Positions 29,776 to 33,113 of a DNA stretch of 64,000 nucleotides are shown in pieces (within the stretch, counting starts at the first letter, position 1; the number at the start of each line of letters is the position of its first letter). The notes beneath the pieces are model-generated. The model was given only the letters and a program-made list of their open reading frames with translations. It was not told the DNA's origin and searched no databases. A program made the translations under genes and the position numbers. Source of the stretch: Cryptosporangium arvum DSM 44712 (GTDB taxonomy: Bacteria > Actinomycetota > Actinomycetes > Mycobacteriales > Cryptosporangiaceae); assembly GCF_000585375.1 (NCBI RefSeq), contig NZ_KK073874.1, forward strand, positions 6,726,894-6,790,893. Reading direction: 5' to 3'.

Positions 29776-30986
29776 TCGGACGCATGAACCCATGGCGGTG
29801 GTGGCAGAGCACCGACGACCTCGGCCGGGTGACGCTCTACACCCGGTCCTCGATCCTCCCGCTGTTGGTCGTCGGCCCGCTGGTCATCGCGTCGGTGCCG
29901 GCCGTGCAGCGGGGCGAGATCAGCGAGCCGGTGGTGATCACGCTCGTCGCCACCGTGGTCGGGATGTCGCTGCTGGCCGCGTTCCTCGTCGATCGGCAGG
30001 TGATCGGCCGGGCGCTGGGCCGGCCGCACCTGACGCTGCTGGCTGGAGCCGCGCTGGTCGCCACCGTGATCGTGAGCCTGCTCCCGATCGGGAACATTCG
30101 CGGGCCCGCGCTGCTGACGGTCGCGGCGTTCACGATGGCTCCGATCGGCGCCTTCGGCTCGCGGTTCTACGTACCGATCGGCCTGGCGTTCGCCGGCGCG
30201 ATCGCGCTGCAGTCGAACGTGCGGGACCAACCGGAACAGCTCGTCCCACTGACCGTGCAGATGGTTCTGCTCCTGTACGTGGTCGCGGGCACGGCGCAGC
30301 TGTCGGTCTGGCTGGTCAACGTGGTGCGTCGGCTGGCGGACGCGGATCGGACCCGGGCCGAGCTCGCGGTGGCCGAGGAGCGGCTGCGGTTCGCGCGTGA
30401 CCTGCACGACATCGTCGGGCGCGACCTGTCGGCGATCGCGGTCACCAGCGACCTGGTCGCCGAGCTCGCCCGGCGCGGTCGTCCGGAGGCGGCCGAGCGG
30501 GCCGAGGAGGTGCGCACGATCGCGCAGGAGTCGCTGCGTCAGGTGCGCGAGGCCGTCCGCGGGTACCGGACGATCGACCTGCGGACCGAGCTGGAAGGCT
30601 CGGCGGCGCTGCTGCGCTCGGCCGGGGTGAAGAGCCGGATGAGCGCCGACGTCGGCACGCTGCCGGACGACGTCCGGACCGCGACGGCCTGGGTCGTGCG
30701 CGAAGGCGTGACGAACGTGGTGCGGCACTCGAACGCCACGCTGTGCCGGATCGAGGTACGGGAAGAAGGGGGCACGGTGCACGTGCGGCTGGAGAACGAC
30801 GGCGTGAGCGGGCCGCTCGGGCAGGGGTCCGGGCTGGTCGGGTTGGCCGAGCGGCTCCGCCCGCTCGGGGGTGAGCTCACGTCCGAGCAACGCGACGGGT
30901 CGTTCGTGCTGCGCGCCGAGATACCGGCGGCGGGTGCCCCGGCGGCGGTCTCGGGGGCCGACGGTGGGCGGGAGGTGCGCGCGTGA
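29772..30986 (+). CDS. DesK-type sensor histidine kinase
   Basis: 404 aa. Five or six helices occupy residues 20-190, a coiled linker follows (LADADRTRAELAVAEERLRFARD), and the HisKA_3 motif RDLHDIVGRDLSAIA contains the phospho-accepting His. The HATPase domain has VREGVTNVVRHS (N-box) and GSGLVGLAERL (G-box). Absence of a large sensor domain and the multi-helix N-terminus resemble DesK, so it may sense the membrane or a membrane-active drug. The start is ATG 29772, overlapping the permease stop; ATG 29784 is an alternative. Confidence 0.9.
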   Translation: MIGRMNPWRWWQSTDDLGRVTLYTRSSILPLLVVGPLVIASVPAVQRGEISEPVVITLVATVVGMSLLAAFLVDRQVIGRALGRPHLTLLAGAALVATVIVSLLPIGNIRGPALLTVAAFTMAPIGAFGSRFYVPIGLAFAGAIALQSNVRDQPEQLVPLTVQMVLLLYVVAGTAQLSVWLVNVVRRLADADRTRAELAVAEERLRFARDLHDIVGRDLSAIAVTSDLVAELARRGRPEAAERAEEVRTIAQESLRQVREAVRGYRTIDLRTELEGSAALLRSAGVKSRMSADVGTLPDDVRTATAWVVREGVTNVVRHSNATLCRIEVREEGGTVHVRLENDGVSGPLGQGSGLVGLAERLRPLGGELTSEQRDGSFVLRAEIPAAGAPAAVSGADGGREVRA

Positions 30987-31588
30987 TCCGGGTGTTGCTG
31001 GCCGACGACGAGAACCTCGTGCGCAGCGCCATCGCCGGCCTGCTCGACCTGCAGGACGACCTGCTGATCGTGGCCCAGGCGGCGTCCGGAACCGAGGCGG
31101 TCGCGATGGCGAGCAAGGAGCTGCCCGACGTCGCGGTGCTCGACCTGCAGATGCCGGGCGCCGACGGGCTCGCCGCGGCCACGCAGATCCACGCCGCCGT
31201 GCCCGGCTGCGCGACGATGGTGCTGACCAGCCACGGCCGGCCCGGCTACCTCAAGCGGGCGCTGGAGATCGGCGTGCGGGGGTTCCTGCCGAAGACCTCG
31301 TCCGGGTCGGTGCTGGCCGCCGCGATCCGCACCGTGGCCGGCGGCGGCCGGTACGTCGACCCCGAACTCGCCGCGGACGCGATCGCCGCCGGCGAGAGCC
31401 CGCTCACCCCCCGCGAGGCCGACGTTCTGGAGCTCGCCGCCGACGGCGCGACGGTCGAGGAGATCGCGGTGCGCATCTCGCTCTCGCCGGGCACCGTGCG
31501 CAACCACCTGTCGTCGGCGACCGGCAAACTCGGCGCAGCCAACCGCCACGAGGCCGTCGCCGCCGCCCGCCGCTCCGGCTGGATCTGA
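30983..31588 (+). CDS. NarL/FixJ-type response regulator
   Basis: 201 aa. The receiver domain has the acidic pair D8/D9, phospho-acceptor D54 in VLDLQMPG, and Lys in FLPKTSS. The C-terminal LuxR-type HTH is recognisable in LTPREADVLELAADGATVEEIA and GTVRNHLSSATGKL. GTG start overlapping the kinase stop. It is the likely transcriptional regulator of the preceding ABC operon. Confidence 0.93.
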   Translation: MIRVLLADDENLVRSAIAGLLDLQDDLLIVAQAASGTEAVAMASKELPDVAVLDLQMPGADGLAAATQIHAAVPGCATMVLTSHGRPGYLKRALEIGVRGFLPKTSSGSVLAAAIRTVAGGGRYVDPELAADAIAAGESPLTPREADVLELAADGATVEEIAVRISLSPGTVRNHLSSATGKLGAANRHEAVAAARRSGWI

Positions 31589-31592
31589 CCGC

Positions 31593-31621
31593 TTGACAAC
31601 GGAGACCACCTTATCGAATAT
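31593..31621 (+). promoter_or_regulatory. Promoter of the DUF2975-HTH operon
   Basis: A perfect TTGACA -35 (31593-31598), a 17-bp spacer and GAATAT (31616-31621) as a candidate -10. The -10 lies inside the palindromic operator described next, so a bound regulator would block RNA polymerase. Confidence 0.65.
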
Positions 31622-31644
31622 CGATGTTATCGACTTTCGATAAG
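31610..31644. promoter_or_regulatory. Palindromic operator built from four ATCGA boxes
   Basis: CTTATCGA (31610-31617) and TCGATAAG (31637-31644) are perfect inverted copies; the flanking base pairs extend the outer arms to 9. Between them lie ATCGAT (31620-31625) and ATCGA (31629-31633), giving an overall imperfect 35-bp dyad with four ATCGA-type elements. It overlaps the -10 and ends 10 bp before the DUF2975 ATG. Probable binding site of the HTH protein encoded two genes down. Confidence 0.7.
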
Positions 31645-31654
31645 GGAGACGGCC

Positions 31655-32227
31655 ATGCGACGACGAGGGCACCTCGGGGAGTTCGAGATCCTGCTGATCG
31701 TGGCGCTCGCGGCCTGCGGCGTGGGACTGATCGCGGGAGCCTGGCAGCTCGTCGCCCGCGTGCCGATCACGGTCGCGGTCCAGGGCACGCCGACGCTGTC
31801 CGGCCTGGCGCCGGGGGTCCGCCCCGAGCAGGCCGGTCCGGTGGCGGTGATCGTGGACGACCCGACCGGGTCGCAGGTCGCGTGGGAAGCGCTACGCACC
31901 GCGCCCTGGTTCGCGCTCATCGTGTTCACGCTGGTGATGCTCCTGCTGGTGGTGCGTTCCGCGCGCCGGGGCGAGCCGTTCTCGGACGCGAACATCCAGC
32001 GGCTCGCGCTGACCGGCTGGGTGCTGCTGGTGGGGAGCGCGCTGGCGTTCGTGCTCGAACTGATCGCCGTGACCGAGCTGTCGGAGAGCGTGTCCGTGTC
32101 CGGGGCGCTCAGCGGAGGCGCGACCTACTCGTTCGTCTGGGCGTTCTCGAGCCTCGGGTTCCTGGCCGTGGCCGAGGTGCTGAAGCGGGGACGGGCGATC
32201 CAGGCCGACCTCGCCGGGGTGGTGTGA
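31655..32227 (+). CDS. DUF2975 family membrane protein
   Basis: 190 aa with four predicted helices, separated by a Pro/Gly loop and the conserved SARRGEPFSDANIQRLALTGW segment characteristic of DUF2975. An AAGGGAG Shine-Dalgarno precedes the ATG. DUF2975 genes are commonly paired with a small XRE-type regulator, as here. Function unknown; by the pairing it could be a sensor or immunity-like protein that controls the regulator (inference). Confidence 0.83.
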   Translation: MRRRGHLGEFEILLIVALAACGVGLIAGAWQLVARVPITVAVQGTPTLSGLAPGVRPEQAGPVAVIVDDPTGSQVAWEALRTAPWFALIVFTLVMLLLVVRSARRGEPFSDANIQRLALTGWVLLVGSALAFVLELIAVTELSESVSVSGALSGGATYSFVWAFSSLGFLAVAEVLKRGRAIQADLAGVV

Positions 32228-32457
32228 TGCCGCCGGACGAGCAGCACCGCGTCGACGTGCACATCGACCGGTTGCTCGCCGAGCGGGGCATGACGCTCAC
32301 GGAGCTGGCGGGCAAGGTCGGCATCACGCTGGCGAACCTGTCGATCCTGAAGAACGGGCGGGCGCGAGCGATCCGGTTCAGCACGCTGACCGCGCTCTGC
32401 GAGGTGCTCGACTGCCAGCCCGGCGACCTCTTCACCGTCCCGGCGACGCCACCCTGA
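32227..32457 (+). CDS. XRE-family HTH regulator paired with DUF2975
   Basis: 76 aa, almost entirely one helix-turn-helix domain (MTLTELAGKVGITLANLSIL) plus the ALCEVLDCQPGDLF tail typical of the YozG-like subgroup. Its start overlaps the DUF2975 stop by one base (TGATG). Autoregulation through the palindrome at 31610-31644 is likely. Confidence 0.88.
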   Translation: MPPDEQHRVDVHIDRLLAERGMTLTELAGKVGITLANLSILKNGRARAIRFSTLTALCEVLDCQPGDLFTVPATPP

Positions 32458-32462
32458 GTGGA

Positions 32463-33113
32463 CTACGGCGCCACCCGGATGCGGGCCGCGCGGAACGCCT
32501 CCGGGGTGGCTTCGAGGATCGTGCGGCGGGGGTCGGGGACGGTGAGGAAGCGCTCGACCGCCAGCTGACGCAGCGGCGCCAGCGTGCGGTTCTCGAGCGT
32601 GGTGTCGACCGCGGCCCGGTCGCCGCCGAGCACGACCGCGTCGAGCGTGCCCGCTTCGGGGAGGAGCACGCGCTCGGCGACGGCCGCCGCCGCCTCGGTG
32701 AGCTGGCGCGCCTGCCCCTCGCGACGCCGGGCGAACCGCTGCTGCGACCAGCCGCCGGCCTTGTTGCGGCCGTGCACCGGCCGGGTGTCGACCTTCGACA
32801 CGACCAACCGCGTGCCCTCGAAGATCCCGGCCGCGTAGCCACCGAGCCGCACCAGCAGCACCCCGACCCGCCGGTCGGTCGCGGTGTGCGTCACCAGCGC
32901 CTCGAGCGGGTCGCGCACGCCGATCACCAACGGTGGGAACGGGGCGTGGCACTCGGCGATCGCGCCGTCGGCCCCGTGCACGGTGACGACGTCCGCCGCG
33001 ACGTCGGTGCGGCCCTCGCCGTGGCGTTCGGTGAAGCCGGCCAGCCAGCGCTCCAGGCGCTCGGGCGGGACCTCGACCCAGCGTCCGCCGCCGGCGGCCG
33101 GCTTTCCTCCCAT
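32463..33113 (-). CDS. acVLRF1 family peptidyl-tRNA hydrolase (Vms1-like release factor)
   Basis: 216 aa, eRF1-like fold restricted to actinobacteria. The catalytic GxxQ-type loop is visible as HGRNKAGGWSQQRFARRRE (about residues 122-140). The downstream GGDRAAVDTTLENRTL segment is conserved in Vms1/VLRF1 proteins. By analogy with Vms1/ANKZF1 it should release nascent chains from peptidyl-tRNA on stalled ribosomes. Its ATG (33113) lies just beside the remnant of a LuxR-type gene, so its upstream region was reshaped by a deletion. Confidence 0.85.
   Translation of the reverse strand: MGGKPAAGGGRWVEVPPERLERWLAGFTERHGEGRTDVAADVVTVHGADGAIAECHAPFPPLVIGVRDPLEALVTHTATDRRVGVLLVRLGGYAAGIFEGTRLVVSKVDTRPVHGRNKAGGWSQQRFARRREGQARQLTEAAAAVAERVLLPEAGTLDAVVLGGDRAAVDTTLENRTLAPLRQLAVERFLTVPDPRRTILEATPEAFRAARIRVAP

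Follow-up and report, generated by a model that had tools for sequence, protein, structure and literature searches.

A conserved paired dyad, probably an autoregulatory operator, precedes DUF2975-HTH_26 gene pairs

The window analyzed here, which is the entire 64-kb stretch of DNA, carries two overlapping genes that the preliminary description had read as encoding a membrane protein and a minimal HTH protein. Profile matches assign each of them to a family. The first gene (31655-32227, + strand) encodes a 190-aa protein with four predicted membrane helices, of which residues 82-190 match DUF2975 (PF11188, E 1.8e-10; 41.3 bits compared with a curated cut-off of 27). The second gene (32227-32457, + strand) encodes a 76-aa Cro/C1-type protein that matches HTH_26 (PF13443, E 1.8e-21; 76.6 bits, curated cut-off 22). 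The HTH_26 gene adjoins the DUF2975 gene on the same strand, which is the arrangement of the conserved two-gene module. The stop codon of the DUF2975 gene overlaps the ATG of its neighbor (TGATG, 32225-32229), and this overlap suggests that translation of the two proteins is coupled.

An AlphaFold2 model of the DUF2975 protein (mean pLDDT 83.2) has helices at residues 7-28, 72-104, 111-145 and 160-189. An alignment of 32 relatives keeps a GxPF...RL motif after helix 2 and a C-terminus resembling GxxMRxDLEGxV, and the segment joining helices 1 and 2 is variable in both length and sequence. By the positive-inside rule, the conserved parts would be on the cytoplasmic side, the same side as the HTH protein. 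Foldseek comparison of the model to the PDB gave no match at E ≤ 0.001 (the best was 0.18). A second structural comparison gave a Z score of 8.5 at best, to TARP auxiliary subunits; this lies below the level that is telling for helical bundles, and no fold is proposed.

Genes for an ABC transporter, a histidine kinase and a response regulator stand in a row on the same strand just upstream of the pair (28.1-31.6 kb of the window). The last of these, the response regulator gene (30983-31588), ends 4 bp before a TTGACA hexamer. Downstream, a gene on the opposite strand (32466-33113) that is convergent with the HTH_26 gene encodes an acVLRF1-type release-factor-like protein (PF18859, E 3.6e-47). 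The ABC transporter and two-component genes were rejected as parts of the system, since at E 1e-8 they do not accompany the module in other loci. In tblastn searches of 83 loci at E ≤ 1e-8, the window's histidine kinase is matched in none and its response regulator only in L031, which is from the same genus. Matches to the ABC ATPase occur in 16 loci and reflect a very common family.

The TTGACA hexamer at 31593-31598 (+ strand) is the perfect -35 element that had been proposed from the letters. A putative -10 element, GAATAT, lies 17 bp past it (31616-31621, +), and a likely Shine-Dalgarno sequence, GGGAGA, is found at 31644-31649 (+). The composite dyad CTTATCGAATATCGATGTTATCGACTTTCGATAAG occupies 31610-31644, and 28 of its 35 positions are symmetric. 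Its outer arms, CTTATCGAA (31610-31618) and TTCGATAAG (31636-31644), are perfect over 9 bp. With up to three mismatches, the 64-kb window has a single occurrence of both arms at their own spacing and 100 shuffled versions have none, and a repeat search returned 17-nt arms (31609-31625 and 31629-31645) that are 88% complementary. The 35-bp, four-box dyad of the preliminary description is thereby confirmed. Its further claim, that the dyad lies over the -10 element, concerns a putative -10. GAATAT matches TATAAT at only three of six positions, which is weak, and a promoter scan of the region called no promoter, so it is the 17-bp spacing that places the dyad over the -10.

The same four boxes can alternatively be described as two tandem 17-bp dyads of the form TTATCG-N5-CGATAA whose starts, 31611 and 31627, are 16 bp apart. 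Putative operator site 1, TTATCGAATATCGATGT (31611-31627), has two mismatches to this pattern and contains the putative -10. Putative operator site 2, TTATCGACTTTCGATAA (31627-31643), is perfect and abuts the ribosome-binding site. Two matches to the shorter pattern in the window are only mildly unusual by themselves, as 2 of 100 shuffles also reach two. The weight of the dyad comes from the joint arrangement and its conservation, rather than from two short matches.

DUF2975 genes are present in 17 of 61 near-relative genomes (counting the window's own) and, across the class, in 102 of 296 genomes, and related HTH proteins appear in 241 plasmid records. An HTH_26-like frame accompanies 119 of the 123 DUF2975 loci that were fetched. 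Leaving the window itself out, 118 loci were scored, each over at most 420 bp lying between 850 and 430 bp upstream of the HTH domain. The preliminary description had made its proposal depend on the presence of the dyad at orthologous loci. The window's TTATCG-N5-CGATAA pattern (≤ 2 mismatches) recurs in 61 of these 118 upstream stretches. The corresponding counts are 0 of 114 for downstream controls of equal length and 11 of 2360 for shuffled sequences. A more general form, YTATYG-N5-CRATAR (≤ 1 mismatch), is found in 101 of 118, versus 0 of 114 and 8 of 2360, but of the two tests only that with the window's dyad is free of circularity because the general pattern was drawn after the loci were seen.

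Both counts are defined by the fixed stretch, and four loci that are tallied as lacking a site (L078, L083, L139 and L099) have sites elsewhere in the locus. The operator is further upstream than usual in L078, L083 and L139. The L083 region has two DUF2975 matches before the HTH gene, suggesting that tandem copies of DUF2975 share a single operator. No site was found anywhere in L077. L114 and L124, DUF2975 loci that lack a neighboring HTH gene, have no site within two mismatches. L116, in which the profile recognizes no HTH protein, nonetheless has two sites with a 21-bp spacing.

Among named relatives (the best 80 of 594 loci), the general site with at most one mismatch is present in 52 of 80, compared with 2 of 78 controls. 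When these best 80 are sorted into groups assigned from record titles, sites are found in 14 of 14 loci of Bacillota (with one Halobacteroidaceae), 3 of 3 of Bacteroidota, and the single loci of Chloroflexota and Patescibacteria (1/1 each), as well as in 9 of 15 Alphaproteobacteria and 24 of 46 Actinomycetota. The frame taken as the upstream gene in this cross-phylum comparison is not DUF2975 in some loci, for example, L161. Fourteen of the best 80 have no site within two mismatches in the scanned stretch. Of ten plasmid loci, five (L141, L142, L147, L149 and L150) have a site with at most two mismatches in the 200 bp that precede DUF2975 and the other five do not.

On a Paraclostridium bifermentans plasmid (L144, 1508-2491), two adjoining annotated DUF2975 genes, one of them short (300 bp), precede a single HTH gene. 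On a Streptococcus salivarius plasmid (L149), a gene with the annotation class III lanthipeptide follows the DUF2975-HTH pair at a distance of about 2.3 kb. This neighborhood is a hint that some DUF2975-HTH pairs may respond to peptides.

Paired sites occur in two layouts. For 83 loci whose HTH proteins have the helix motif N-x-(A/S)-V-L-K-N, a second site 21 bp away is the best or tied-best in 67, and a spacing of 16 bp is so in none. For 36 loci with the motif N-L-S-x-L-K, which is the window's HTH type, the second site is 16 bp away in 24 and 21 bp away in 2. Spacing is not set by the helix motif alone, because in Bacillota, Bacteroidota, Chloroflexota and Patescibacteria it is mostly 21 bp and yet their helix reads NLS. 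A pattern for window-type HTH proteins, which also captures those of Alphaproteobacteria, is fitted by 91 examined loci. Forty-six of these pass the threshold for a 16-bp pair and have counterparts of the composite dyad, with the consensus.TATCGtTtaTCGATA.tATCGAtaatCGATA., and perfect 15-bp arms are present in L064, L068 and L071. Two relatives differ in spacing: a locus from the same family (L016) has a 16-bp pair, and one from the same genus (L019) has sites 15 bp apart, not 16. Site pairs at a fixed distance of 16 or 21 bp are the rule, which fits binding by two dimers.

The first and last bases of the site also vary with HTH type, with C first in 76 of 81 cases and T first in 18 of 32. This relationship is suggestive of a specificity code, but it is not counted as evidence of binding because only about two clades are involved. 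Common descent could account for the way in which both spacing and end base correlate with HTH type. The 46 of 91 loci indicate that a class of relatives shares the four-box dyad, but much of its symmetry follows from having two tandem palindromes. In the 16-bp class, spacers match as inverted copies at 135 of 230 positions, compared with 114.9 (standard deviation 6.3) in mispaired controls, and 6 of 2000 controls reach 135. An excess is seen also in the 21-bp actinobacterial class (167 of 340 versus 151.1; 18 of 2000), and none is seen in the Bacillota-like class (36 of 90 versus 39.5). The composite palindrome was set aside as a separately selected feature and is retained as a description only, because shared descent can produce the spacer match and tandem palindromes are largely symmetric anyway.

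Promoter elements accompany the sites in both layouts. In 22 of 46 loci of the 16-bp class, TTGAC stands in the 35 bp that precede the first site, at varying distances from it, versus 12 of 920 control stretches. In the 21-bp class, TTGAC is inside the first site in 25 of 66 loci. Many of these latter loci have a start codon directly after the second site, suggesting that their transcripts are leaderless. As read from these sequences, sites in the 16-bp and 21-bp layouts alike cover predicted core promoter elements.

Within genomes, the site is closely tied to DUF2975 genes. The 9.2-Mb genome from which the window is taken has two exact matches to YTATYG-N5-CRATAR, one before each of its two DUF2975-HTH pairs, and operator site 2 of the window is one of them. 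The second pair, at G000:C1:4773124-4773501 (L001 and L033), also encodes an HTH_26 protein and is of the 21-bp type, and the -35 lies within its first site, CTATTGACTTTCGATAG. The two putative repressors of this genome might engage in cross-talk. A broad regulon was considered and rejected, as allowing one mismatch gives 11 places in this genome compared with 13 for the reversed pattern, which is no excess. One of the one-mismatch sites, at 523360, has no HTH_26 match (E ≤ 0.01) nearby.

In 20 genomes chosen among DUF2975 carriers (about 142 Mb in total), there are 20 exact places, of which 14 are within approximately 0.3 kb before a DUF2975 match. The remaining six equal the six given by the reversed-pattern control. 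Four of the remaining sites were fetched, and no HTH_26 match (E ≤ 0.01) lies near any of them. Five of the 20 genomes lack an exact site, and their DUF2975 loci have sites with one mismatch. Because at this stringency an excess of sites exists only at DUF2975 genes, the element looks like a dedicated autoregulatory operator rather than part of a broad regulon.

Paired dyads over the core promoter of a regulator's own operon are seen in the window, and this arrangement is conserved. On comparative evidence, which supports the operator that had been proposed for this locus, the dyad is most probably the operator of an autoregulated operon, at which two HTH_26 dimers would bind to repress the DUF2975 and HTH_26 genes. 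We infer that the HTH protein is the binder, that binding represses, and that the two dimers bind together. The 76-aa protein would occupy the two adjacent 17-bp sites as two dimers, and the bound sites would span the DNA from the -10 region to the ribosome-binding site such that transcription of both genes is repressed. Sites with starts 16 bp apart would present their dimers on opposite faces of the DNA, since this distance corresponds to roughly one and a half turns of the helix. A spacing of 21 bp would put the dimers on the same face.

Among PDB chains, 3tyr (E 4.1e-6), which we take to be VanUG, comes nearest to the HTH profile of the window. VanUG of the vanG locus, the best studied parallel, is reported to be an Xre-family repressor of its own promoter that acts at two adjacent imperfect palindromes and gives a two-step gel shift (PMC4405338). 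The likeness is that of a small Xre-type autorepressor with two adjacent imperfect palindromes over a promoter. In contrast to the window's HTH protein, VanUG is encoded with VanR/VanS and has no membrane protein partner in that account (PMC4405338). Its sites are described there as 14-bp repeats, and they are likened to the window's operator by description, not by sequence (PMC4405338).

The main rival to repression by the HTH protein is an RNA element. The transcribed inverted repeat could form a hairpin, with its 3' arm pairing into the GG of the ribosome-binding site, that controls translation or ends read-through from upstream. The predicted fold of 31604-31660 is indeed stable (-19.9 kcal/mol, z -3.65), and none of 200 shuffles is as good. 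However, an RNA fold is expected of any perfect DNA dyad, the region 31400-31800 yielded no terminator call, and transcription from this promoter would start near the middle of the dyad so that only half of it would be transcribed. The hairpin also fits the relatives poorly. The letters of TTATCG and CGATAA are kept across phyla, although an RNA stem could change in pairs, and the first site of the 21-bp class must lie upstream of the transcription start in those 25 of 66 loci where the -35 is inside it. An RNA element is accordingly an improbable explanation.

It is similarly improbable that a different protein binds the dyad, either a global one or the response regulator encoded just upstream, and that the HTH protein acts elsewhere. 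The response regulator gene does lie immediately before the -35, and VanUG and VanRG are reported to have a common target promoter (PMC4405338). However, the tblastn searches above found no histidine kinase in 83 loci and a response regulator only in L031, while the dyad is kept, and exact sites outside DUF2975 loci are no commoner than the reversed control, which argues against a global regulator. Slightly less probable still is a reading in which the HTH protein does bind the dyad, but as an activator of the operon, or as both activator and repressor depending on occupancy. A weak -10 is a property of activated promoters, but the sites here extend from the -10 to the ribosome-binding site, and those of the other class take in the -35 in 25 of 66 loci. 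Sites placed over the core promoter usually repress. VanUG is likewise described as a repressor (PMC4405338).

If the HTH_26 protein is the repressor, the membrane protein may determine when repression is relieved. DUF2975, via its conserved cytoplasmic loop and C-terminal helix, might hold or release the HTH protein upon a signal at the envelope. This more speculative step is drawn by analogy to CylR1/CylR2 of Enterococcus faecalis, a proposed phosphorelay-free two-component system in which a membrane protein signals to a DNA-bound repressor (PMC3709268). As in the window, a membrane protein and a small HTH repressor are encoded together (PMC3709268). CylR1 has three predicted membrane helices compared with the four predicted for the window's DUF2975 protein, and CylR2 represses a divergent neighboring operon, its own genes being transcribed from an overlapping promoter (PMC3709268). 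Here, by contrast, exact matches in the window's genome show no target beyond the two DUF2975-HTH operons. The likeness drawn here is one of gene adjacency and membrane topology. Of the 24 PDB sequences that match the window's HTH profile at E ≤ 1, none is an entry named CylR2.

The proteins YoaS and YozG are presumably DUF2975 and HTH_26 proteins, respectively. In the accessible part of a survey of toxin-antitoxin systems, Makarova et al. (2009) list a 'YoaS-like, a membrane protein, likely permease' beside Xre 32 times, and exclude the pair from such systems on the grounds that the partner is a membrane protein (PMC2701414). The Xre/YoaS-like pair is very likely the same gene pair, for which that part of the survey gives neither operator nor mechanism (PMC2701414). 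Among open PubMed Central papers, DUF2975 appears in two, in the passages found only as an annotation. No description of this operator was found in the open papers searched. Within the open papers, a widely conserved operator seems to be undescribed.

Taken together, these observations allow a broader proposal that we offer tentatively and regard as somewhat doubtful. DUF2975-HTH_26 pairs may constitute a pan-bacterial transmembrane signaling module without a phosphorelay that uses one operator code, YTATYG-N5-CRATAR, from Actinomycetota to Bacillota, Bacteroidota and Alphaproteobacteria. This code would come in two geometries, 21 bp with dimers on the same face and, in the window's branch, a 16-bp four-box palindrome with dimers on opposite faces. 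The membrane partner, which has an added extracellular loop in the window's branch, would set the level of free repressor.

The proposed mechanism of repression is itself ordinary, and the interest lies in how widely one operator code precedes a family of unknown function. A conserved operator makes the unstudied DUF2975 family testable. A reporter based on this operator could be screened for the signal to which the membrane protein answers.
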